Assembly (NCBI RefSeq): GCF_018100795.1
Contig: NZ_JAGJDY010000009.1
Coordinates: forward strand, 1 to 64,000
Direction: 5' to 3'
DNA: 64,000 nt
Source of the DNA: Alteromonas sp. MMG017
GTDB lineage: Bacteria; Pseudomonadota; Gammaproteobacteria; Enterobacterales; Alteromonadaceae
Shown here in pieces: positions 1,034 through 19,737 of the stretch. Positions within the stretch are counted from its first letter, which is position 1. Each line of letters opens with the position of its first letter. Position numbers and translations under genes: made by a program. A model generated the notes under the pieces. It was not told the DNA's origin. It saw only the letters and a list, made by a program, of their open reading frames with translations, and did not search any database.

Positions 1034-1420
1034 ATGGATACGTTAGTAAATTTTAAGTCCGAAATGTTCAAACCATTTTTACCTGATGATTCTCAGGTTA
1101 ACCCTGGGGTTTTTGGGGCTGAATTAGCATTTTGGATAAGTAAGAAGTTGGCACAAAAAGGTATCATTACTTCCTATCCAGAATATGAGGATTGGGGCTG
1201 GTATGTTGAGTACTGTCTGGACGACAACGAATACCGATTATGCTGTGGTAACGTAGAAAGTTCGCAAACAGAGTGGCAGTGTTTTCTCGAACCATATGCC
1301 AAAGGTTTTTTCGACAGAAATAAAGCTCCTATTGAGTTGGCTAGGGTACTTTTGAATGCCGTTAGAGAGGTTTTAGAAGAAACTGATGGCATTGATGATA
1401 TTAAGTGGTCTTGCAGGTAA
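1034..1420 (+). CDS. Hypothetical cassette protein, 128 aa
   Basis: An acidic soluble protein of 128 residues rich in Trp, Tyr and Cys, without signal peptide or membrane segment and not assigned to a family. I chose the ATG at 1034 over a GTG at 1025 because the GTG overlaps the R' box of attC 2. Downstream, a 33-codon open frame (1438-1539, MLQLALMKSDG...) lies between this gene and the next attC; it may be a second tiny cassette gene or chance. The long tail before the attC is unusual for a cassette. Confidence 0.65.
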   Translation: MDTLVNFKSEMFKPFLPDDSQVNPGVFGAELAFWISKKLAQKGIITSYPEYEDWGWYVEYCLDDNEYRLCCGNVESSQTEWQCFLEPYAKGFFDRNKAPIELARVLLNAVREVLEETDGIDDIKWSCR

Positions 1421-1551
1421 CAGCAAGATCCAAATCTATGCTGCAACTTGCACTAATGAAATCAGATGGCCTTCTAGAAGCTAAGCAAATCAATGGTTTT
1501 TCAGATGAGCTACAATGTTTTATTAATAGCCATGACTAACTTATCAGTACG

Positions 1552-1646
1552 GCCTAACAACCCAATTAACACACTCACTGCGTTCGCTGGAGAGCTCCCC
1601 CTATAAAGTAGACACCTAACCAAATATCAGGTAAGTGCAAAATGGC
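1552..1646 (+). repeat. attC site 3, right half lost, with a 45-50 bp insert
   Basis: R'' GCCTAAC at 1552-1558 and a normal left arm (CACTCACTGCGTTCGCTGG) are followed by an insert at about 1591-1635 (CTATAAAGTAGACACCTAAC and on), then AAAATGGC and an abrupt change into a decayed IS30 gene. The block 1578-1646 is nearly identical to 5658-5726 inside attC site 6. No R' box is seen, so this site should be inactive. Confidence 0.65.
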
Positions 1647-2055
1647 TACTTAGTGACCTTAACGGAACGGATAACAAAGTTCTTATTGACCTGTCGCGTT
1701 AAAACAAGACGGAAAAATTAGTCTCTAAAGCCATTAAAGCCTTTTAGCATATGTGTCATAGTATCACTTTTTATAATGGCGGTGAATTTGCAGGCCATCA
1801 AAGCATTGCCAAAGCACTGAAACGTAAAACCTATTTTGCTAATCCTTATCACTCATAGCAGCGAGGCCTCAATGAAAATGTAAATGGTCTGCTGAGATGT
1901 TTTACCCTAAGGCGCTTGCCATAGGTCAGCTCACCGATCAGAAAATTGCAGACACACAAATGTTAATCAGTTTAATGCCTAGAAAATTGCTAAACTACCT
2001 CACTCCAATTGAAGTATTATTAAATGAGCGTGTGTCACTTATTTTTGATATATAG
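1647..2055 (+). pseudogene. IS30-family transposase C-terminal relic
   Basis: Translation gives fragments characteristic of the IS30 DDE transposase C-terminus: LNGTDNKVLIDLSR, ITFYNGGEFAGHQSIAKAL, TYFANPYHS and QRGLNENVNGLLR. Several in-frame TAA/TAG codons (for example just after DLSR, after KAF and after PYHS) and frame changes near the end show it is dead. The diagnostic Asp of the catalytic region (normally FDNG) is Tyr here (FYNG). No intact N-terminal half or clear inverted repeats were found. It interrupts attC site 3. Confidence 0.8.
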
Positions 2056-2131
2056 GAATTATCTACACTAAATTAGTATTAACGATAGGAAATTATAAAA
2101 ATTTACAGAGTTATATAAAACAATGAGATGT

Positions 2132-3169
2132 TTAATGCTTTTTAATTATTCCATACTCAATTAAACTTTCTGCCGTGTCCTTTATAATTTTTTCTTTATT
2201 AATAGGTGTCCAATTGAATGTGTTCTTTACTTTTTTATTTGATAAGATTTTTATTTTTCCCACTTGTGACGCGACATTTTTTAGTTCAGGTTTAAATATA
2301 GACAATAATTTAACTAACCAATTAGGTAGCACTTTAGTGGTGACCTGTGTTGAAAATTTATTTTCATGAGAATGAAGGATTTGAGCGATTTCTGGCAAAG
2401 AAATAGAGCTATCGCCGGTTAATAAGAAGCGTTCACCTTTAGCTTTCTCATTACTCATTGCTTTAATATGAATATCAGCAACGTCACGAACGTCTACAAT
2501 ACCAAAATGTACGTTTGGTACGGCAGGTATCTTTTTATTAAGTAACTGTTCCACTAGTTGAACTGAGCTAGATAGATTTTTCCCTAAAATAGGTCCAAAA
2601 ATACCGACGGGGTTGATTACGGTAAACTCTAAATTCCCACCTTCTGATGTTATAAAATCCCAAGCTGCACGTTCTGCTAATGTTTTTGATCTAATATAAG
2701 TCGTATTTTCATCTTCTGGGTTGGTCCAGTCTTTTTCTGTAAAAACATAATTACTTTCCTTATTACTATAGCCTATTGTGGCAAAAGAAGACGTCATTAC
2801 AACTCTTTTTACATTAGCATCACGTGCGTGCTTTAATACTCTTAATGTACCTTCTATTGCAGGAATCAATAATTCATCTGGATTTTCTGGATCTTTAGCT
2901 GGAAATGGAGAAGCAACATGTAAAACATATTGACAATCCTTTACTGCTTTACTCCAATTTTTATCATCAGTTAAATCTGCCTCAATAAAAGAAATAGCAT
3001 CAAGATCTGTAGCTCCCTCATTTTCAAGTATTTCAATTATTCCATATTTTTTGTTTAAATTACGAATAGTCGTTTTTACGGTATAACCTCTTTTTAATAA
3101 ATTTAGAATTATGTGTATGCCAACAAAACCAGTCCCACCTGTTACTAACACTTTTTCTTTATTTTTCAT
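2132..3169 (-). CDS. NAD(P)-dependent epimerase/aldehyde reductase-like protein (extended SDR)
   Basis: A 345-residue extended short-chain dehydrogenase. The N-terminal Rossmann motif is VTGGTGFVGIH (residues 9-19); the catalytic-type Tyr-Lys is in the TYIRSKTLAE stretch (YxxxK), with upstream MTSS. This matches the dihydroflavonol/aldehyde reductase branch of NAD-dependent epimerases, acting on small carbonyl substrates in the cytosol. Codon use is strikingly AT-rich (Ile, Lys, Asn) compared with core genes here, and it lies on the minus strand in an otherwise plus-strand cassette array, which suggests transfer. It sits 35 bases downstream of an ArsR regulator in the same orientation and is probably co-transcribed with and controlled by it. 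Substrate not predictable. Confidence 0.85.
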   Translation of the reverse strand: MKNKEKVLVTGGTGFVGIHIILNLLKRGYTVKTTIRNLNKKYGIIEILENEGATDLDAISFIEADLTDDKNWSKAVKDCQYVLHVASPFPAKDPENPDELLIPAIEGTLRVLKHARDANVKRVVMTSSFATIGYSNKESNYVFTEKDWTNPEDENTTYIRSKTLAERAAWDFITSEGGNLEFTVINPVGIFGPILGKNLSSSVQLVEQLLNKKIPAVPNVHFGIVDVRDVADIHIKAMSNEKAKGERFLLTGDSSISLPEIAQILHSHENKFSTQVTTKVLPNWLVKLLSIFKPELKNVASQVGKIKILSNKKVKNTFNWTPINKEKIIKDTAESLIEYGIIKKH

Positions 3170-3204
3170 TATGATATCTCGCTGTGTAACTGTTTATAAT
3201 TATT

Positions 3205-3501
3205 TTAATCTAAGTCAATAAAGTTTTTGATAATTTTTAATGTGTCTTTATTGATAGTAGCTATTAAGAATTTTCCATTTTTTGTCGTCGTTATTAAATT
3301 TGCATTTGATAGCTCTTTCAAATGATGAGAAATAGTGGGAGCTCCAATTTTCATGAAATTTAACATCTCTAAAATTGAGCACTCGCATTTTTTTTCATAA
3401 TCAACATTATCTAACTTGGCAATTTCTTTATAAATTTCTAACCTATTTTCATTACCTAGTGCTTTAAAAACTTTCGCCATTTTTTTTGTATTCATAATCA
3501 T
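3205..3501 (-). CDS. ArsR-family winged-helix transcriptional regulator
   Basis: A 98-residue ArsR/SmtB repressor: FKALGNENRLEIYKEI (helix 1-2) and the recognition helix region GAPTISHHLKELSNANLI are diagnostic. Cys residues in KKCECSILEML could form a metal or redox site (CxC in the position of the ArsR alpha-3 motif ELCVCDL), which is suggestive of metal(loid) sensing. A longer frame reaches 3555 with a TTG start, but a palindrome at 3511-3528 lies immediately upstream of the ATG at 3501, so I place the start there with the palindrome as operator. AT-rich like its neighbour, the epimerase gene it likely regulates. Confidence 0.85.
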   Translation of the reverse strand: MIMNTKKMAKVFKALGNENRLEIYKEIAKLDNVDYEKKCECSILEMLNFMKIGAPTISHHLKELSNANLITTTKNGKFLIATINKDTLKIIKNFIDLD

Positions 3502-3510
3502 ACTTTTACA

Positions 3511-3528
3511 ATTCGACATGTATCGAAT
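3511..3528. promoter_or_regulatory. Candidate ArsR operator palindrome
   Basis: Perfect 6-bp arms ATTCGA and TCGAAT separated by CATGTA, 10 bp upstream of the preferred ArsR start codon. A related half-motif, GATGTATCAAG, recurs at about 3555-3565, with TATGAA-N2-TTCATA between. Position and symmetry fit autorepression by the ArsR protein; binding is inferred. Confidence 0.5.
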
Positions 3529-3604
3529 TATATTGGTATGAATTTTCATAGTCAAGATGTATCAAGTTGCTTCATTAGTTATGATCGTATTGTAAATCCC
3601 TCAC

Positions 3605-4015
3605 ATTGATCTCAACCCGTTAAGAGCAAAAATCAGCCAAACGCCTGAGACCTCAGAATTTAGCAGTGTACAAAAACGAATTGTTTCCGCAAGGCATCAA
3701 AGACAACCGAAACTGCTTTATCGTTTTGTTGGTAACCTCGGAGATAACATGACTGATGGTCTGCCTTTCAAATTGACTGACTACCTTGAGCTGCTTGATA
3801 TGGTGGGGCGTATCAACCGAGAAGACGAACGAGTTTCGATAGACGCTTCCTTGCTACCGATTCTTCAGAGGCTTAATATTTCGTCCGAAAATTGTTGTGT
3901 ATTGCTACTGAATTTGGAGCAAGAACAGGTAATGTGGTGGGTAATGAGCACTCAATAGCGTATTACTGCGAGTCAAACCATCGACACCGAACCCACGCCA
4001 GCAAGGTGTTAAGCT
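3605..4015 (+). pseudogene. Y1 (IS200/REP-associated) transposase C-terminal relic with frameshift
   Basis: From 3605 the translation reads IDLNPLRAKISQTPETSEFSS, then GLPFKLTDYLELLDMVGRINREDERVSIDASLLPILQRLNISSEN, the familiar C-terminal half of REP-associated tyrosine transposases. Around 3890-3900 the homology moves to another frame (CIATEFGARTGNVVGNEH), so at least one frameshift is present. The N-terminal catalytic HUH and Tyr region is absent. It forms the right flank of the AT-rich epimerase/ArsR insert. Confidence 0.75.
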
Positions 4016-4617
4016 ACTCATCTAAATTTATTTTTTCTTCTATATGTTTCTATCAAGATATCGATAATCTGGTCGATTTTCTTCACCTTCAATTAGCCTA
4101 AAAGTACATTTCTTTCTAGTTTTTCTGTTTTACTAGATGAAGAAGTTGTTTAAAAAGTGGTTTTTGAATTAATTTTTATTGTCTAAAAATGGATCGTACT
4201 TGTTGCAATACTGGTGTGTTAGAACGTATTTTGAAGTGGGTGTATGTTAAATATTGTGGATTTATATTAATTAGGTAGGCTGAGAATAGAGAAATTCTAC
4301 AGACTCGTTATGTGTAAGTAATAAATCAAAACTAATAACATGGAAGCCATGTATTTCTTAGCCTTCTGTTGTTGGTGGTAACCAAAATAGACTTGTATCA
4401 GTTTCATAATGAGACAATAGAAGTACGTAATATGCTTTCGAGAGAAATCCACATTGTATTTTCTGGTTTGTCTTTTAGTAAAGTGGTATTTTAAAGTAGC
4501 ATTTATTGGCTAGTAAAAAAGAAATAGTTATTTGCAATCCAATCTGTTTTACGCTCAGTAATGTTTATGATCCGTTTTTGTGTTGGCGGTGCGGTGGGAG
4601 GTGTATTCTTTAATACC
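4016..4617. other. About 600 bp without a recognisable gene
   Basis: AT-rich, no long open frame with a Shine-Dalgarno on either strand, no attC left boundary. It probably represents decayed cassette sequence attached to attC site 4. I see nothing else supportable in it. Confidence 0.5.
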
Positions 4618-12819: not shown

Positions 12820-13094
12820 TATAAATCCCTAAATTAACTAACGTTACTTACCACTTGGCAATGCACAACTTAGTGCTCTAACTGCACAATACTATTTTTA
12901 AACTGAACGATAAAGCGTTTGGAACTAACCAGCATGTAATATAGATTTAGGGTCACCAATGAGCGCGAATCAATGTTAACGTTAAGTCACTCGCTTTCTT
13001 TACGACAAAACCATATCGGTTATAACCACAAAGTGATTAACAATGGATATATTTTCCATTATATTCAATTAAGGCTATACGTACCCCACTCTCA

Positions 13095-13919
13095 ATGGAA
13101 ATGGATGGAATGAACATAGAATCAAAAGGATCTTTGGTAGTAGTTGGTACAGGTATTACTGTATCTGGCCAAATGACCTTAATTACGGAAAGCCTACTTA
13201 AAACAGCCGATATCGTATTGAGCGTTGTAACAGAGTCAGCGCTTGTGAATCTGCAAATGATTAACTCGAATGTGGTGTGTTTACGCCACCTTTACGAGCA
13301 AGGCAAGTCTCGGGCACTCACCTACCAAAAAATGACCCAACGCATTGTTGATGAAGTCAAAGCAGGAAAAAAAGTGGTGGCGGCGTTTTATGGTCACCCA
13401 GGGGTATTTGTTAATCCCTCACATGAGGCCATTAAACAATTAAAAAGCGAAGGGTATGACGCCGAAATGCTACCGGGGATTTCTGCCGAAGACTGCTTAG
13501 TAGCAGATTTAGGGCTAGACCCCGCACATTATGGATGCCAGTCTTATGAGGCAACTCAGTTTCTGCTAAGGCAATATACCTTAGATCCTCATATGATGCA
13601 GATTATCTGGCAGATTGGCAGTATTGCCGATTTCACGCATAACAAAAATCGTACATCGCACCCAGGCTTAACGCAGCTAAGAAACGAATTGTTAAAGTAC
13701 TTTTCTCCTGAGCACACCATTATTGTTTATGAAGCCTCTACTATCCCCATTGCCGCACCTCGAATAGAATATCTTGAACTTAAAGATTTGGCCGCTGTAA
13801 TACCAAAACCTATTACTACGTTGGTTATCCCCTCTAAAGGGTTACCAGATTTTGATATGAAGTCGATGGCAGAACTAGATTTAACCCCTGCCCTTTTTGA
13901 ACAAAAGCTATTTGGCTAA
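13095..13919 (+). CDS. Borosin-type peptide alpha-N-methyltransferase (split borosin, SonM-like)
   Basis: A 274-residue SAM-dependent enzyme of the tetrapyrrole-methylase superfamily. It should methylate backbone amides of the peptide encoded next door. Visible motifs: GSLVVVGTG (12-20), Tyr67-Arg73-Tyr77 in HLYEQGKSRALTYQKM with the spacing of the fungal OphMA catalytic Tyr66/Arg72/Tyr76 (numbers from memory), YGHPGVFVNPSHEAI (99-113), LPGISAEDCLVADLGLDP (126-143) and GCQSYEATQFL (147-157). These are borosin hallmarks rather than of cobalamin or siroheme methylases. No precursor is fused at the C-terminus, so it belongs to the split class. First gene of a probable three-gene operon, 40 bases before the precursor gene. 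Alternative: another peptide-modifying methylase; unlikely. Confidence 0.9.
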   Translation: MEMDGMNIESKGSLVVVGTGITVSGQMTLITESLLKTADIVLSVVTESALVNLQMINSNVVCLRHLYEQGKSRALTYQKMTQRIVDEVKAGKKVVAAFYGHPGVFVNPSHEAIKQLKSEGYDAEMLPGISAEDCLVADLGLDPAHYGCQSYEATQFLLRQYTLDPHMMQIIWQIGSIADFTHNKNRTSHPGLTQLRNELLKYFSPEHTIIVYEASTIPIAAPRIEYLELKDLAAVIPKPITTLVIPSKGLPDFDMKSMAELDLTPALFEQKLFG

Positions 13920-13959
13920 AAACCTAAATTTCTAACCACATAAAATAAAGGAATAAAAA

Positions 13960-14169
13960 ATGAATGATTTGTTGGTAAAGTTTTTAATCGCTATGGATAA
14001 AGACGAGACATTAAAACAGCAGTATGTAAGCGATCCTAAAGGCACGGCTAAAGCATTTGGTCTATCTGATGAAGATGTTCAAATATGTGCTAAAAACGAT
14101 GTTAATGCGATAAAGAGCCGATGTGAGGCTGAAGGCGCAGATAACCTAGAAATTAGTCACTCGAAATAG
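13960..14169 (+). CDS. Split-borosin precursor peptide (SonA-like, LigA-fold leader)
   Basis: A 69-residue peptide. Residues 1-55 form a helical leader (FLIAMDKDETLKQQYVSDPK, AKAFGLSDEDVQICAKND) like the LigA-type borosin-binding domain, where GLSDEDVQ matches the usual GL(T/S)xEx helix. The C-terminal tail GADNLEISHSK is the likely core: Leu63 and Ile65, two residues apart, are candidate N-methylation sites, the same spacing I recall for Shewanella SonA. The core is very short and no protease gene is nearby. Shine-Dalgarno AAAGGAAT. It lies between its methyltransferase and a hybrid histidine kinase. Precursor identity is inferred from context plus leader; the product is unknown. Confidence 0.85.
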   Translation: MNDLLVKFLIAMDKDETLKQQYVSDPKGTAKAFGLSDEDVQICAKNDVNAIKSRCEAEGADNLEISHSK

Positions 14170-14198: not shown

Positions 14199-16988
14199 AT
14201 GAGATTGTTGCGCCTTTTGTGGGTAGTGCTTTTAGCACTGCCCAGCTTTCCTGTGTTTTCTCAAGACGCAACGGTTGATATTGATAAGGTATTACAAACT
14301 GCCGATAAGAATGTATTCGTTAACCCCACCCTCGCAAAGAAGCTTCTTACCCAAGCCGAGAGGTATTTAGCAGACAAAGACCTTCCGGCCTATGAAGCTC
14401 ACTTGCTTAATCTAAAAAGTCATTCGTACATTCTGGAGGGTAACTATCAACTTGCCTACGAAAAGGCAACACAGGCAAAAAAGCTAGCCACAGAAGCTGG
14501 TAACCAATTGCAACTTGCCGAAGCGTTAAGACGACAAGGAATAATAACTTATTTCTTTGATTTATACGGTGAATCATTAGAGTTACTACTTAATAGCCTG
14601 AGTATTCATCAGTCGTTAGACACCACCTACATACAGAATACGCTGCAAGCCATAGGAAATTTGTATGCGAAATCGAATCAATGGGCAGATAACCTAATAA
14701 ATACAGGTGAACAACTGGTTGCTGAATCAATTAAACGCGGCAACGCCTATTATGAAGAGCAAGGGTACGGTTTTATTGTATCGGGCCTGTTGGCTAAGGG
14801 AGAAATAAAACAAGCGAAATCATTGATTGACCAAGTAAATACTGATCCCGATAAATTTGCTCCCATCTTAAATTTCTATCTGGCAAAAACCCTCCTTCAA
14901 TTAGGTAGCCATGAAGAAGCGCTTGCGGTTACTGAAGATATTATAAAGTATGCAGTTACTGGAAAACACCGCCAACGAGAGCTTGCGGGGCTTGCGTTGC
15001 GGTCAGAGGTTTTACTCAAGTTAGAACGTATTGATGAAGCCACCCAAACGGTGTTGAAGTTCTTATCAATTGCACAAGATTTAGATATTACTGAATATCA
15101 GTATGAAGGCTTAAAGATACAAGCCAATATTGCGCTACTTCAAGGCCAATATCGTGATGCCTACCAATTTCTTTTACAACATTCAGAATTAAAGCAGCAG
15201 GTTTTTGATACGCGTCAATCAGAGCAATTAGCGTTTAATAGAGCCCGTTTGGAAACCGATCAAAAGATACAAAAAATTACTGAATTAGAACTTAGTCAGC
15301 AACTGTCAGAACAAAATAGTACGTTTCAAGTGTACATCATTGTTACTATTTGCTGCGTAGCTGTTCTTTTATTCTTTATGTTTGTTATCACACTTAAACA
15401 GAAGCGAGAATTGCGAGAGCTTGCGTTAAATCTACAAAAAGCCACCGACGCGAAGTCAGAATTTTTGGCCCGTATGAGCCACGAAATTAGAACGCCCGTG
15501 AACGCGATAGTGGGGCTTACCAAGCTGACACAAAAATCTGTCGTTAATGAAGAACAGAAAACCAACTTAACCCAAATTGAACAGTCGTCTCAAACCCTGC
15601 TAGGGGTAATAAACGATGTGCTAGATTTTTCAAAAATTGAAGCGGGTAAACTTGATATTGAATCTGAGGCATTTGAACTCGATAAACTGGTTGAGCAAGT
15701 CATTCGGTTGCACGGGTTAAATGCCAGAGAGAAACGTATTGAATTATTACAGTACGTGGCAAGAGATGTTCCCTTGCAAGTCTCTGGTGACGCTCTGCGT
15801 ATTGAGCAAGTGCTGAATAACCTGCTAAGCAATGCGATTAAATTTACCGACGAAGGCATGGTGTTCGTATCGGTTAATAAAAAATACTCTGAACACGGTG
15901 TTTTACTTGAGTTTTCAGTAAAAGATACAGGCATTGGCCTATCAACAAATCAAATAGAATCGCTGTTCGATGCCTTTACGCAAGCTGACGAATCGATTAC
16001 CCGTAAATATGGTGGAACGGGGTTAGGTTTATCAATTTGTAAGCACCTTGTCTCGCTAATGGGCGGGGAAATATGGGTAGAGAGCAAGCTGGGTCAAGGC
16101 GCTACTTTCTTCTTTACGGTGTTGGTTGAAAAGCATAATCAAATGCCACAATCCACTACGCTAGGAAACTTAACCTTATCCGATTTAAAAGTGTTGGTGG
16201 TTGACGATGTTATGCTTTCAAGACAGGCAATAGCGGAAGCCTTGTTGCGTATTAATATAAACCCAGACTTGGCCACTGGTGGTAAAGAAGCGTTAATGTA
16301 TCTGCGCACCGCTATGGCAAGCAACGCACCGTATGATTTAATTATTATTGATTGGAAAATGGCGGATATTGATGGCATCGAATTAGCCTCAATTATTAAC
16401 CAAGAGTTCAGCCAAGGTAAGCCGAACATAGCGATGCTATCAGCTTATGATATCGAGTCACTTAAGACCCTTGGCCGCCCTGTGGGTGTGGAATATTATC
16501 TGCAAAAACCCGTTAATAGCAGCTCATTGCAGAATTGCTTATTGAAAATGTCTACCAAGGGTAAACCTCAAATGGCGACATTAGAAAGCGATGCCAATGT
16601 GCCACCCGATTTTTCTGAGAAAAACATCCTGCTTGTAGAAGATGATGCGATTAACCGTAAAGTTGCTAAGCTATTTTTAGCCGATACAAAGGCAAAAGTC
16701 AGTGTTGCAGAGAATGGCTTAATTGCTTTGCAAATGTTGGAGCAAGAAAACGTCTTCGATCTTGTTCTAATGGATATGCAGATGCCAGTAATGGACGGGT
16801 TAACTGCAGCTCAAAAAATTCGAGAAGAATTAAAATTAGACATTCCAATTGTGGCGATGACAGCTCACGCCATGCAAACAGAGATAGAAAAAAGCTTCGC
16901 CGTGGGTATGAATGCACACATTGTAAAACCCGTTAAGCCAGAATATTTGTATCAGGTATTAAATGAGCAGTTTGTAAAAGAGGCTTAA
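14199..16988 (+). CDS. TPR hybrid histidine kinase with two receiver domains
   Basis: A 929-residue sensor: signal peptide (1-21, ending FPVFSQ), periplasmic TPR-like helical repeats (about 30-375), one membrane helix (about 378-398, [20 protein letters not shown]), HisKA with phospho-acceptor His428 in [12 protein letters not shown], an HATPase domain ([29 protein letters not shown]), receiver 1 with Asp718 (IIIDWKM) and receiver 2 with Asp859 ([12 protein letters not shown]). No DNA-binding or Hpt domain, so phosphate must pass to a partner in trans. It follows the borosin precursor by 29 bases with no terminator between, implying operon membership. The periplasmic TPR could bind peptide or cell-wall ligands; that link is speculation. 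Confidence 0.9.
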
Positions 16989-17083: not shown

Positions 17084-17156
17084 GAAATAGCGGTGAGTTT
17101 GATAACACAAATAGATACGAAGCTAAGAACTCAGTTAACAACTAAACTAAAAAAGA

Positions 17157-17194
17157 AAAAAGCGGCTAACCTGTTAGGTTAGCCGCTTTTTTTT
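17157..17194. terminator. Strong bidirectional rho-independent terminator
   Basis: A 12-bp perfect stem AGCGGCTAACCT (17161-17172) / AGGTTAGCCGCT (17176-17187) with loop GTT, preceded by an A-run and followed by eight T. It ends the borosin operon on the plus strand and can also end the convergent metalloprotease gene. Confidence 0.9.
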
Positions 17195-17271: not shown

Positions 17272-19737
17272 TTAGATAGGTGACCCCGGAGGTAATGGCT
17301 TCACATCAAACGCGCCAGACCAGTGCCCTGATTTCCAGTAAGTATCGAAATACGTGTGCAATACTTCGTCAGCATCTCTGTCACTGTCATCATCTAGCCA
17401 TTCATCAAACTCAAGCAAAGCACTGTGCATGGCCATTTTAGCTTCAGGCGCTAGTGCTGGGTTTGTTACGGCTTTCATGATGGCATTCAATGCAACTAAT
17501 TGTAGGCGGGTAGCAACTAAATCCCCTTTACCGCCGCGTTTGTGTTTCGCACGATACCAATGTACGTTCAATATTTGACGTACAAGCCCTTCCACACCAA
17601 TGAGTTCTTTTGTGCGGCTACTTTGCCACGCCAAGCGGTTTAAACGTTCTGGATGCAATAACAAAGACAATGCAAAATCACTGGCAGATGCAGCTGCAGA
17701 TACTGGGTCGAGCATTAGCCCCATTTTTCCTTGAAAATGCTCGCGGGTAACATCGTCACCATAGGCAGTGGGTGGTATAAGTGCCAATACGGCTTCAGGA
17801 ATAGCTAAATAAGGTACGGTAGTAGCCGTTATAAGCTGCTGCATGGCACGTTGCTGTACTTGTGGCGCTACGTCTTGCTGGCCCTGAGGCGTAGTGTAAT
17901 CTCCCTTACGCTCGTATTCGTATATTAAGCCGCCCACTTGCTTTGCAACCGCTTCTAGTTGAAAACGATGCAGTAAATAAATGGGCACTAACGCATTCTC
18001 CAATGAAGACAAGCTAGCATTGGGCTTTAAGGTATCCATTCCCAATTGATCAAGCGCATGACGTCTAACCGCAGAGATTTCATCAAAAGCATCTAGCGGA
18101 TCGGCGCCATTTTCCCACATGTGCCCGTTAGCTGAACTATGACGAGAACTACGCGTGTCTGAATCAGATTTAAACGCCAGGCCTTTATTACGGGTTTTAA
18201 CAATTTGCTTAGCCAAGCCTTCGGTTTCTTCATTAGTTGAACCAAACTCTTGATAACCATAAACAATAGCGTGTTTGTCCCATGCGCCTATGCCCTTATC
18301 ATAAGCCCCTTCAAGGCTTACTTTTCCATCTTTTAAAGTAATTCGAGGGTGTGGATAATCCATCACTGAAGCCATTTCGTTTTCACTGGCAGCAAAGTTG
18401 TGCGCTATACCTAGGGTATGGCCTACTTCATGAGCCGAAAGCTGCTTAATGCGATCTAACGCCATAGCTTCTTGTTCTGGTGAACTCGCATTGTCACCTG
18501 AAAATGGGCTGGTAAGCCCTAGTGCGATTAAATAATCTTGGCGGACACGCAGTGAACCCAGCGTCACATGGCCTTTTATAATTTCACCGGTGCGAGGGTC
18601 GACCACAGATGAACCATAAGACCAGCCACGGGTAGCGCGATGCACCCAATTTATCACGTTGTAACGTACATCCATAGGATCGGCATTTTCAGGCAACACT
18701 TTTACCTGGAATGCATTTTTGTAGCCTGCTGCTTCGAAAGCTTGGTTCCACCAACTTGCGCCTTCTTTCAATGAGGACATCACCGGCTCTGGAATACCTG
18801 GGTCTAGGTAATACACAATAGGTTCAACCGCTTCGCTCATAGGTGCATGTGGTGATACCTTGGCTAAACGGTGGCGGGTGATAAAACGCTGCTCAGTAGG
18901 CTCGTTAATTGCCGTTGAGTAATCAAAATAGCGGAATTTCCAGTACCCTGAGTAGGGATGATAAGCACGCGGTGTATAACCATCGTCAGGCAATGCAACA
19001 AATGAATGATGAAGGTGTACGGAAAGGTTCTCAGGATCTGGCGTGACATCAGATACATAGTTACCAGGCTTGCTGCCAGCGAATGTGACTAAGGCTTCAA
19101 GCTCGGTGTTTTTCTCAAAACCCTTTGTGCGTGGTAAATACACCCCGCTGCGGTTTTTGTCTGCTTTAAAGCTGCCTTGTTTTTTAGCTGACAACCGGTT
19201 GCCGATACCATGAATATCGCTGAATAAAAAAGGTGTGTAGTCGATTAAATTAGCGCTATCACTTTTTGCCACTATGACAAAGCCGGCTAATACCGAACTA
19301 GCAAAGGCCTCATTAATACTCTGTTTTTCAGCTGCGCTACCATGGGCTGCGCGGTACTTGGTATTTAACTGCTTCAGCATAAGCTTATTGCCAAAGCGTT
19401 CGAAGGTAATTAAGCGAGTGCGTCCTAACTGGCCTCTATCTAAGCCAATGTCGTTAGAGCCTACACCGTAGGGTAAGCTGCTTTGAAATAAAAACTGTTG
19501 CTCATCGTTGGGTATCGATAAATACACTTTGTCAGTTTCATCATCATAATAGACGGGGATAAGCCCATCTTTGGCGGACATCTCTTCGGTGAATTCGCTG
19601 ATAGTAGGTAAGGCTGCCCATACCGGTGTCGCGAAAAAAGCGGACACGACGACAATCATTAACCACCGAACAGCGCTAAATGAGAACGGCTTCTCACCCT
19701 TCGCCTTTTTATTACCTTGTTTGTTTTCGACCAACAC
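17272..19737 (-). CDS. Secreted zinc metalloprotease (DUF5117/DUF4953 type)
   Basis: An 821-residue protein with an N-terminal membrane/signal segment (WLMIVVVSAFFATPVWA), a DUF5117-like beta region (GLIPVYYDDETDKVYLSI; GLDRGQLG) and the extended zinc motif HEVGHTLGIAH: His436, Glu437, His440 and His446, followed by the Met-turn MDYPHP. This is the metzincin-like family of large exported proteases frequent in Alteromonadales and Bacteroidetes. It should act in the periplasm or outside the cell; the natural substrate is unknown. Single gene, ending close to the terminator at 17157-17194. Confidence 0.88.
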   Translation of the reverse strand: MLVENKQGNKKAKGEKPFSFSAVRWLMIVVVSAFFATPVWAALPTISEFTEEMSAKDGLIPVYYDDETDKVYLSIPNDEQQFLFQSSLPYGVGSNDIGLDRGQLGRTRLITFERFGNKLMLKQLNTKYRAAHGSAAEKQSINEAFASSVLAGFVIVAKSDSANLIDYTPFLFSDIHGIGNRLSAKKQGSFKADKNRSGVYLPRTKGFEKNTELEALVTFAGSKPGNYVSDVTPDPENLSVHLHHSFVALPDDGYTPRAYHPYSGYWKFRYFDYSTAINEPTEQRFITRHRLAKVSPHAPMSEAVEPIVYYLDPGIPEPVMSSLKEGASWWNQAFEAAGYKNAFQVKVLPENADPMDVRYNVINWVHRATRGWSYGSSVVDPRTGEIIKGHVTLGSLRVRQDYLIALGLTSPFSGDNASSPEQEAMALDRIKQLSAHEVGHTLGIAHNFAASENEMASVMDYPHPRITLKDGKVSLEGAYDKGIGAWDKHAIVYGYQEFGSTNEETEGLAKQIVKTRNKGLAFKSDSDTRSSRHSSANGHMWENGADPLDAFDEISAVRRHALDQLGMDTLKPNASLSSLENALVPIYLLHRFQLEAVAKQVGGLIYEYERKGDYTTPQGQQDVAPQVQQRAMQQLITATTVPYLAIPEAVLALIPPTAYGDDVTREHFQGKMGLMLDPVSAAASASDFALSLLLHPERLNRLAWQSSRTKELIGVEGLVRQILNVHWYRAKHKRGGKGDLVATRLQLVALNAIMKAVTNPALAPEAKMAMHSALLEFDEWLDDDSDRDADEVLHTYFDTYWKSGHWSGAFDVKPLPPGSPI

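Follow-up and report, generated by a model that had tools for sequence, protein, structure and literature searches.

The window, a 64,000-nucleotide stretch from the 4.73-Mb, 84-contig genome of Alteromonas sp. MMG017, carries three consecutive genes on the forward strand, predicted to encode a methyltransferase, a small precursor peptide and a hybrid histidine kinase, with intergenic gaps of 40 bp and then 29 bp (Table 1). Two of these open reading frames, those of the methyltransferase and the 69-aa peptide, had been proposed in a reading made from the nucleotide letters, and both were recovered where that sequence-only reading had placed them. A three-gene operon is part of the explanation that we favor below. 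The promoter-like site upstream is weak, because such matches are no commoner in this region (8 found) than in shuffled sequence (11.7 expected). Convergent with the kinase gene, on the reverse strand at 17272-19737, lies a gene for a large Met-zincin-type protein (Pfam DUF4953/DUF5117), which we place outside the cassette because it is kept only in L064 and L065 among the compared loci.

Table 1. Features of the borosin cassette in the window, and core-coding remnants in two related genomes
Feature	Position	Strand	Basis
Promoter-like site TTAACA-17-TATATT	13037..13065	+	Consensus match only; 29 bp 5' of the methyltransferase ORF
SonM-type borosin alpha-N-methyltransferase, 274 aa	13095..13919	+	SonM match, Pfam TP_methylase, conserved catalytic residues, tree
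SonA-type split borosin precursor, 69 aa	13960..14169	+	SonA by single sequence and profile; five-helix model
Leader/borosin-binding domain, residues 1-58, five helices	13960..14133	+	AlphaFold2 model, mean pLDDT 80
Core NLEISHSK, residues 62-69	14143..14166	+	SonA alignment
Predicted N-methyl sites Leu63 and Ile65	14146-14148 and 14152-14154	+	SonA alignment; SonA sites from PMC8429565
TPR-sensor hybrid histidine kinase, 929 aa	14199..16988	+	Pfam, hydropathy, conserved neighbor
Predicted periplasmic TPR sensor domain, residues 28-314	14280..15140	+	AlphaFold2; PDB neighbors LGN, Rap, NprR
Terminator-like element, strong 19-bp stem and T tail	17154..17194	+, scored on - strand too	3' of the kinase gene
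Core-coding remnant, G054	L145:6360-6484
Core-coding remnant, G033	L146, just upstream of kinase 1224-4544	reverse

Among solved structures, the methyltransferase matches SonM of Shewanella with E = 1e-57 and fungal borosin enzymes with E-values from 2.8e-51 to 1.9e-44. The Pfam label TP_methylase would also suit a cobalamin or siroheme methylase lying beside an unrelated small ORF, but this superfamily name is common to borosin enzymes as well. Such an identity is vanishingly improbable: the best tetrapyrrole enzyme among the structure matches, siroheme synthase, reached only E = 7.9e-4, NCBIfam tetrapyrrole models scored far under cut-off (best 45 bits of 525), and the partner peptide is SonA-like. 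The enzyme tree opposes it too. In this tree of 116 rows, built by a quick method with SH-aLRT support only and rooted on the two siroheme/tetrapyrrole methylases of the host genome, a branch with support of 100 separates these two from the other 114 rows. The sequence-only reading had named grouping with cobalamin/siroheme methylases as the outcome that would overturn it, and because of this branch it passed that test. Two near relatives of the window, L064 and L065, were left out of the tree, as was L072, and partner labels were set by hand for the window (hybrid kinase, by Pfam), for L070 (hybrid kinase) and for L075 (hybrid kinase, from a truncated sensor). In Alteromonas lipotrueae, of the same genus, the enzyme is 95% identical to that of the window.

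The proposed borosin motif set was located in the enzyme at residues 99-110 (YGHPGVFVNPSH), 126-135 (LPGISAEDCL) and 147-153 (GCQSYEA). By manual count on the alignment, Tyr67, Arg73, Tyr77 and Tyr99 correspond to SonM Tyr58, Arg67, Tyr71 and Tyr93, and the first three are spaced by 6 and 4 residues compared to 9 and 4 in SonM. Of the OphMA-like spacing suggested earlier, the Arg-Tyr step stands, since R72 and Y76 of OphMA, named in PDB titles, are also 4 residues apart; the Tyr step depends on OphMA Tyr66. Mutation of the four SonM residues lowers activity (PMC8429565). As relatives L021 and L026 start at Met6 (13110), this later start is just as likely for the window enzyme.

On its own the precursor matches SonA weakly (E = 0.0097, single-sequence search), and a precursor-family profile lacking Shewanella rows matches it with E = 9.7e-11; this profile, A5, retains 18 of 23 rows, one Shewanella row and four divergent rows of A2 having been removed. 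Pfam LigA matches it under cut-off. The AlphaFold2 model consists of five helices followed by a floppy tail, in agreement with the helical leader and NLEISHSK tail described earlier, and in a Foldseek search of the PDB all of ranks 1-28 were SonA chains, with probability up to 1.00 and weak E-values (best 0.092). Values of dN/dS for the precursor were 0.09, 0.03 and 0.03 against three relatives and 0 against the nearest, and were not computable for two, which indicates that the gene is under purifying selection. The enzyme-precursor pair is thus more than a chance juxtaposition, because of the SonM match (1e-57) and the low precursor dN/dS. Five of the six closest genomes have an identical core, and that of the sixth departs from it at one residue.

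These comparisons and models confirm the pair as a predicted split borosin of the SonM/SonA, or type IV, kind. Enzyme and precursor are encoded by separate adjacent genes; the enzyme belongs to the SonM/OphMA family and has the core-binding Tyr/Arg/Tyr/Tyr residues, with roles as given in PMC8429565; the precursor has a predicted five-helix borosin-binding domain; and hydrophobic Leu63 and Ile65 occupy the SonA methylation positions, as had been suggested and as the alignment with SonA bears out, the methylated SonA residues being Leu63 and Ile65 in that paper. The likeness to SonM-SonA of Shewanella oneidensis (PMC8429565) lies in the separation of enzyme and precursor, the five-helix leader, the Tyr/Arg/Tyr/Tyr active site and the C-terminal L-x-I-S-H with Leu63 and Ile65. 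The window's proteins differ in a side-clamp loop 3 residues shorter than that of SonM and in Glu64, where SonA has Val64. Fungal OphMA is a homologous methyltransferase (E = 2.5e-48) with alike R72/Y76 spacing, but in OphMA enzyme and precursor are fused, whereas the window has two separate genes.

The third gene encodes, in order, an N-terminal signal sequence (by eye), a TPR region, a transmembrane segment, HisKA, HATPase and two receiver domains. Pfam recognizes HisKA, HATPase and both receivers, the TPR matches falling under cut-off, and hydropathy shows one hydrophobic peak at about residues 378-399. No Hpt domain was found by Pfam in the window kinase; two relatives have one, and the host genome has 10 Hpt matches elsewhere. 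An AlphaFold2 model of residues 1-400 (mean pLDDT 88) predicts a TPR solenoid between the signal sequence and the membrane helix, and because of the signal sequence, judged by eye, and the single transmembrane segment we place this domain in the periplasm. Its structural matches include Rap with competence factor (Z 24.5) and NprR-NprX (Z 24.5), the best being eukaryotic LGN (up to 27.7). The modeled solenoid is a generic fold that binds many things, and the likeness to Rap and NprR, of the RRNPP group, is probably a fold analogy rather than membership. Rap and NprR are cytoplasmic Gram-positive proteins that read unmodified peptides, whereas the window sensor belongs to a membrane kinase and is predicted to be periplasmic. 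The GGDEF-sensor profile found 4 places in the host genome, with the window kinase best and three others close behind, among them one with a HisKA motif and one with a GGDEF motif; these near-equal matches rule out a TPR sensor special to borosins.

Kinase and pair stay together across relatives. Of the 29 clade loci scanned by tblastn, 28 have a kinase core no more than 4.5 kb from the methyltransferase gene, and in the 29th (L075) the contig ends inside the sensor. The scan covered 51 further loci, of which only L120, itself a clade member by the tree, has such an adjacent core, and the 31 GGDEF-type loci from Alteromonas have none. Across 14 representative loci, a further flanking ORF of at least 100 aa was common to only 2 of 91 locus pairs; because flanking genes are otherwise hardly shared, the kinase linkage is more than inherited synteny. 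None of the other ORFs at 1025-29826 of the window was kept beside the three genes in L066-L092. On the enzyme tree, enzymes with a hybrid kinase partner form one clade of 28 rows, the window included (SH-aLRT 97), and the kinase partner needs a single change of state. Two of the loci examined, L087 and L088, have two tandem borosin enzymes followed by one precursor and one kinase.

An adjacent sensor was found within 2.5 kb of the enzyme in 110 of 129 loci (31/31, 30/30, 31/50 and 18/18 in four sets), many of which are circular because each of the sensor profiles A3 and A4 drew on 17 loci, which match it by construction. Evidence independent of A3 and A4 comes from the tblastn kinase scan, the GGDEF motif scan and the order-wide loci. 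Sensor matches further off numbered only 10 in about 1960 kb of the same loci; the adjacent matches in L117 and L130 were marginal. Of the 19 loci (among the 50) that had no adjacent sensor, 12 are outside Gammaproteobacteria and 7 within, some on short contigs, and L093, counted among those without, has a GGDEF protein just past the distance limit.

The output module is a kinase in the window's clade. In the sister clade, to which Shewanella belongs, it is for the most part a diguanylate cyclase (GGDEF), and the 69 rows of this clade on the enzyme tree comprise 60 with GGDEF, 4 with none and 5 not examined. Its Alteromonas members form the third Alteromonas group, where a motif scan found all 31 loci to have a downstream GGDEF protein of about 570-600 aa. 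Seven GGDEF partners scanned with Pfam all had the GGDEF domain, and four had TPR matches, all under cut-off; compared as profiles, the N-terminal 400 residues of the GGDEF partners and the kinase sensor share an alignment of 373 columns (hhalign E = 8e-32). Across the order, 18 of 18 SonA-like loci, picked by hand among 53 matches, had an adjacent TPR sensor (17 are independent, L178 repeating L120), with outputs of 11 GGDEF, 3 kinase and 4 without a recognized output in the same frame. The last include L167, with GGDEF in a separate frame; L179, with a GGDEF-like end that lacks the motif; L181, with a sensor that ends after the membrane helix; and L174, where a SonA-like precursor and enzyme adjoin a tandem array of four TPR-only proteins, each of about 355 aa (L174:417-5221), that have neither a C-terminal membrane helix nor an output domain. 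The precursor of L168 has about 87% identity to SonA over the 62 residues compared (manual count), and the GGDEF ORF of that locus starts directly after it. The third gene is a hybrid histidine kinase in the window and a TPR-GGDEF gene in SonA-like L168 and the Shewanella loci L139 and L142. What stays constant seems to be a unit of methyltransferase, precursor and TPR protein, with a swappable output.

The persistence of the kinase beside the pair in many relatives points to a signaling role for the modified peptide, with the sensor as its reader. We estimate a probability of roughly 55% that the cassette is a peptide-and-receptor signaling unit whose output module has been exchanged between clades. 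By analogy with SonM/SonA, the enzyme would very probably bind the five-helix leader and methylate two backbone amides, that of Leu63 and then that of Ile65. Some peptidase would then free a short C-terminal peptide that reaches the periplasm, a step that we propose tentatively and at slightly less than even odds. There the TPR domain of the neighboring hybrid kinase would bind the freed peptide, and the peptide-bound kinase would alter phosphate flow through its two receiver domains; we consider the chances of these two events evenly balanced. We infer that the N-methylated tail is most likely the ligand of the neighboring sensor. The four tandem TPR-only copies in L174 could also point to a self-protection protein or carrier whose task is to keep a harmful N-methylated peptide bound within the periplasm, with the outputs reporting its load. 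We find this improbable, since 31 of 31 and 29 of 30 loci of two Alteromonadaceae sets have an output domain and we know of no toxicity of SonA-type peptides.

Several observations count against signal reading by the sensor, namely the breadth of the sensor family, genomes that have the kinase alone, the 19 of 50 loci without an adjacent sensor, the generic fold and the compartments involved. Three of 59 genus genomes (G014, G033 and G054) have no enzyme match, yet their kinase frame is intact and its surroundings are the same, so the kinase can outlast the methylated peptide. Both this and the broad sensor family in the host genome favor an alternative in which the locus is an ordinary type IV split borosin, the kinase is an expression switch sensing something else, and the peptide is a secreted metabolite; genes for regulators are, moreover, common neighbors of RiPP pathways. 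Against this, the sister clade has in the kinase's position a GGDEF enzyme, which is unusual as a local gene switch, and in L174 that position holds TPR-only proteins without output. The core, the same in five of the six closest genomes and one residue off in the sixth, is unlike a diversified metabolite. We therefore regard the expression switch as unlikely, at about half the weight of the signaling unit or a little less. A broader version of the signaling reading, in which the split borosins found in these Gammaproteobacteria are Gram-negative pheromones, each a C-terminal peptide N-methylated on its backbone under guidance of the leader, with a cognate periplasmic TPR receptor and an exchangeable output, and kinase-only genomes are receptor solos, is possible, and we lean slightly against it.

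One common deletion in G033 and G054 removed nearly the whole enzyme gene and the leader. The last 19 precursor codons, core included, remain as an open frame upstream of the kinase, and by manual count the two remnants differ in 6 codons in sense and in 2 silently, with an identical core. We read this remnant as a probable decaying relic. No clade enzyme without a kinase was found among 30 loci. Some clade enzymes may themselves be decaying, because the L072 gene has an in-frame stop and the L089 gene a changed, shorter end. In L146, which has lost the enzyme, the gene immediately behind the kinase (207-1112, - strand) encodes a PAS-GGDEF protein, a possible tie to c-di-GMP within the kinase clade as well.

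Transport is the weak point of the signal model. Enzyme and leader have no signal sequence and should therefore be cytoplasmic, and the TPR domain is predicted to be periplasmic. According to PMC8429565, N-methylation favors membrane passage, an effect that may help the tail reach the periplasm. Among the compared loci, no gene for an exporter or peptidase is conserved next to the cassette. Pepsin-like PF00026, the only peptidase family searched for, gave no match in the host genome, in a search whose built-in controls matched nowhere and which was positive in 2 of 6 other genomes of named loci, Shewanella atlantica and Aliiglaciecola sp. M165. The family is probably absent from the window's genome, yet the match in Aliiglaciecola sp. 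M165, a kinase-clade genome in which the protein lies away from the borosin locus, argues that it is not absent from the whole clade. The pair had been described as a self-contained N-methylation system; this part of the sequence-only reading is not supported, because a TPR-sensor kinase belongs to the same conserved cassette and no PF00026 peptidase was matched in the genome. Pepsin-like PF00026 proteins are encoded directly upstream of the borosin enzyme at L142:7791-9332 (Shewanella atlantica) and L041:2779-4059 (Alteromonas) and are candidate leader peptidases. Shewasin A reportedly cleaves a borosin precursor.

Within the literature searched, which covers part of the borosin papers, we found neither a link between borosins and kinases nor a TPR receptor with exchangeable output. 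The GGDEF part of the link is at least partly known, because a figure legend in PMC11395268 names a GGDEF domain. The enzyme-precursor pair is thus of an already known kind, and its conserved tie to a TPR receptor, here a hybrid kinase, is apparently new within that literature. As of 2021, no split borosin pathway had been tied to a final natural product according to PMC8429565, and a 2023 title cited in PMC10885120 announces one bacterial borosin product. With a conserved receptor next to the pair, the role of borosin peptides becomes directly testable as binding and signaling. If the signaling reading is correct, backbone N-methylation would be a means by which Gram-negative bacteria produce a ribosomal peptide signal, and a phosphorelay or c-di-GMP would carry the output.

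Borosin enzymes are present in 52 of 59 genus genomes, at 61 places (E <= 1e-20), and fall into three groups. The first, of the window's type, occurs in 6 genomes; the second numbers 19, with enzymes about 50% identical and tails such as IRVISY; and the third has 36 places, with enzymes 36-44% identical and precursor candidates that are seemingly unrelated, none being called at L034 and L043. A second Alteromonas borosin class, L033-L063, has a GGDEF partner in 31 of 31 loci and precursors with a leader such as SAIELLEKLG and a tail that is acidic and proline-rich or contains Cys. An order-wide search of 247 genomes located SonA-like precursors in 44 of them, at 53 places (E <= 1e-5). In the family search of 295 genomes, 25 contained enzyme matches at E <= 1e-60, a threshold that captures close relatives only. 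Among 72,556 plasmid records, 22 carry a distant enzyme relative, all below 60% identity. A 471-aa borosin enzyme at L046:3672-5084 is apparently fused to an acetyltransferase-like domain, and separate GNAT genes adjoin the borosin enzyme in L041 and L142.
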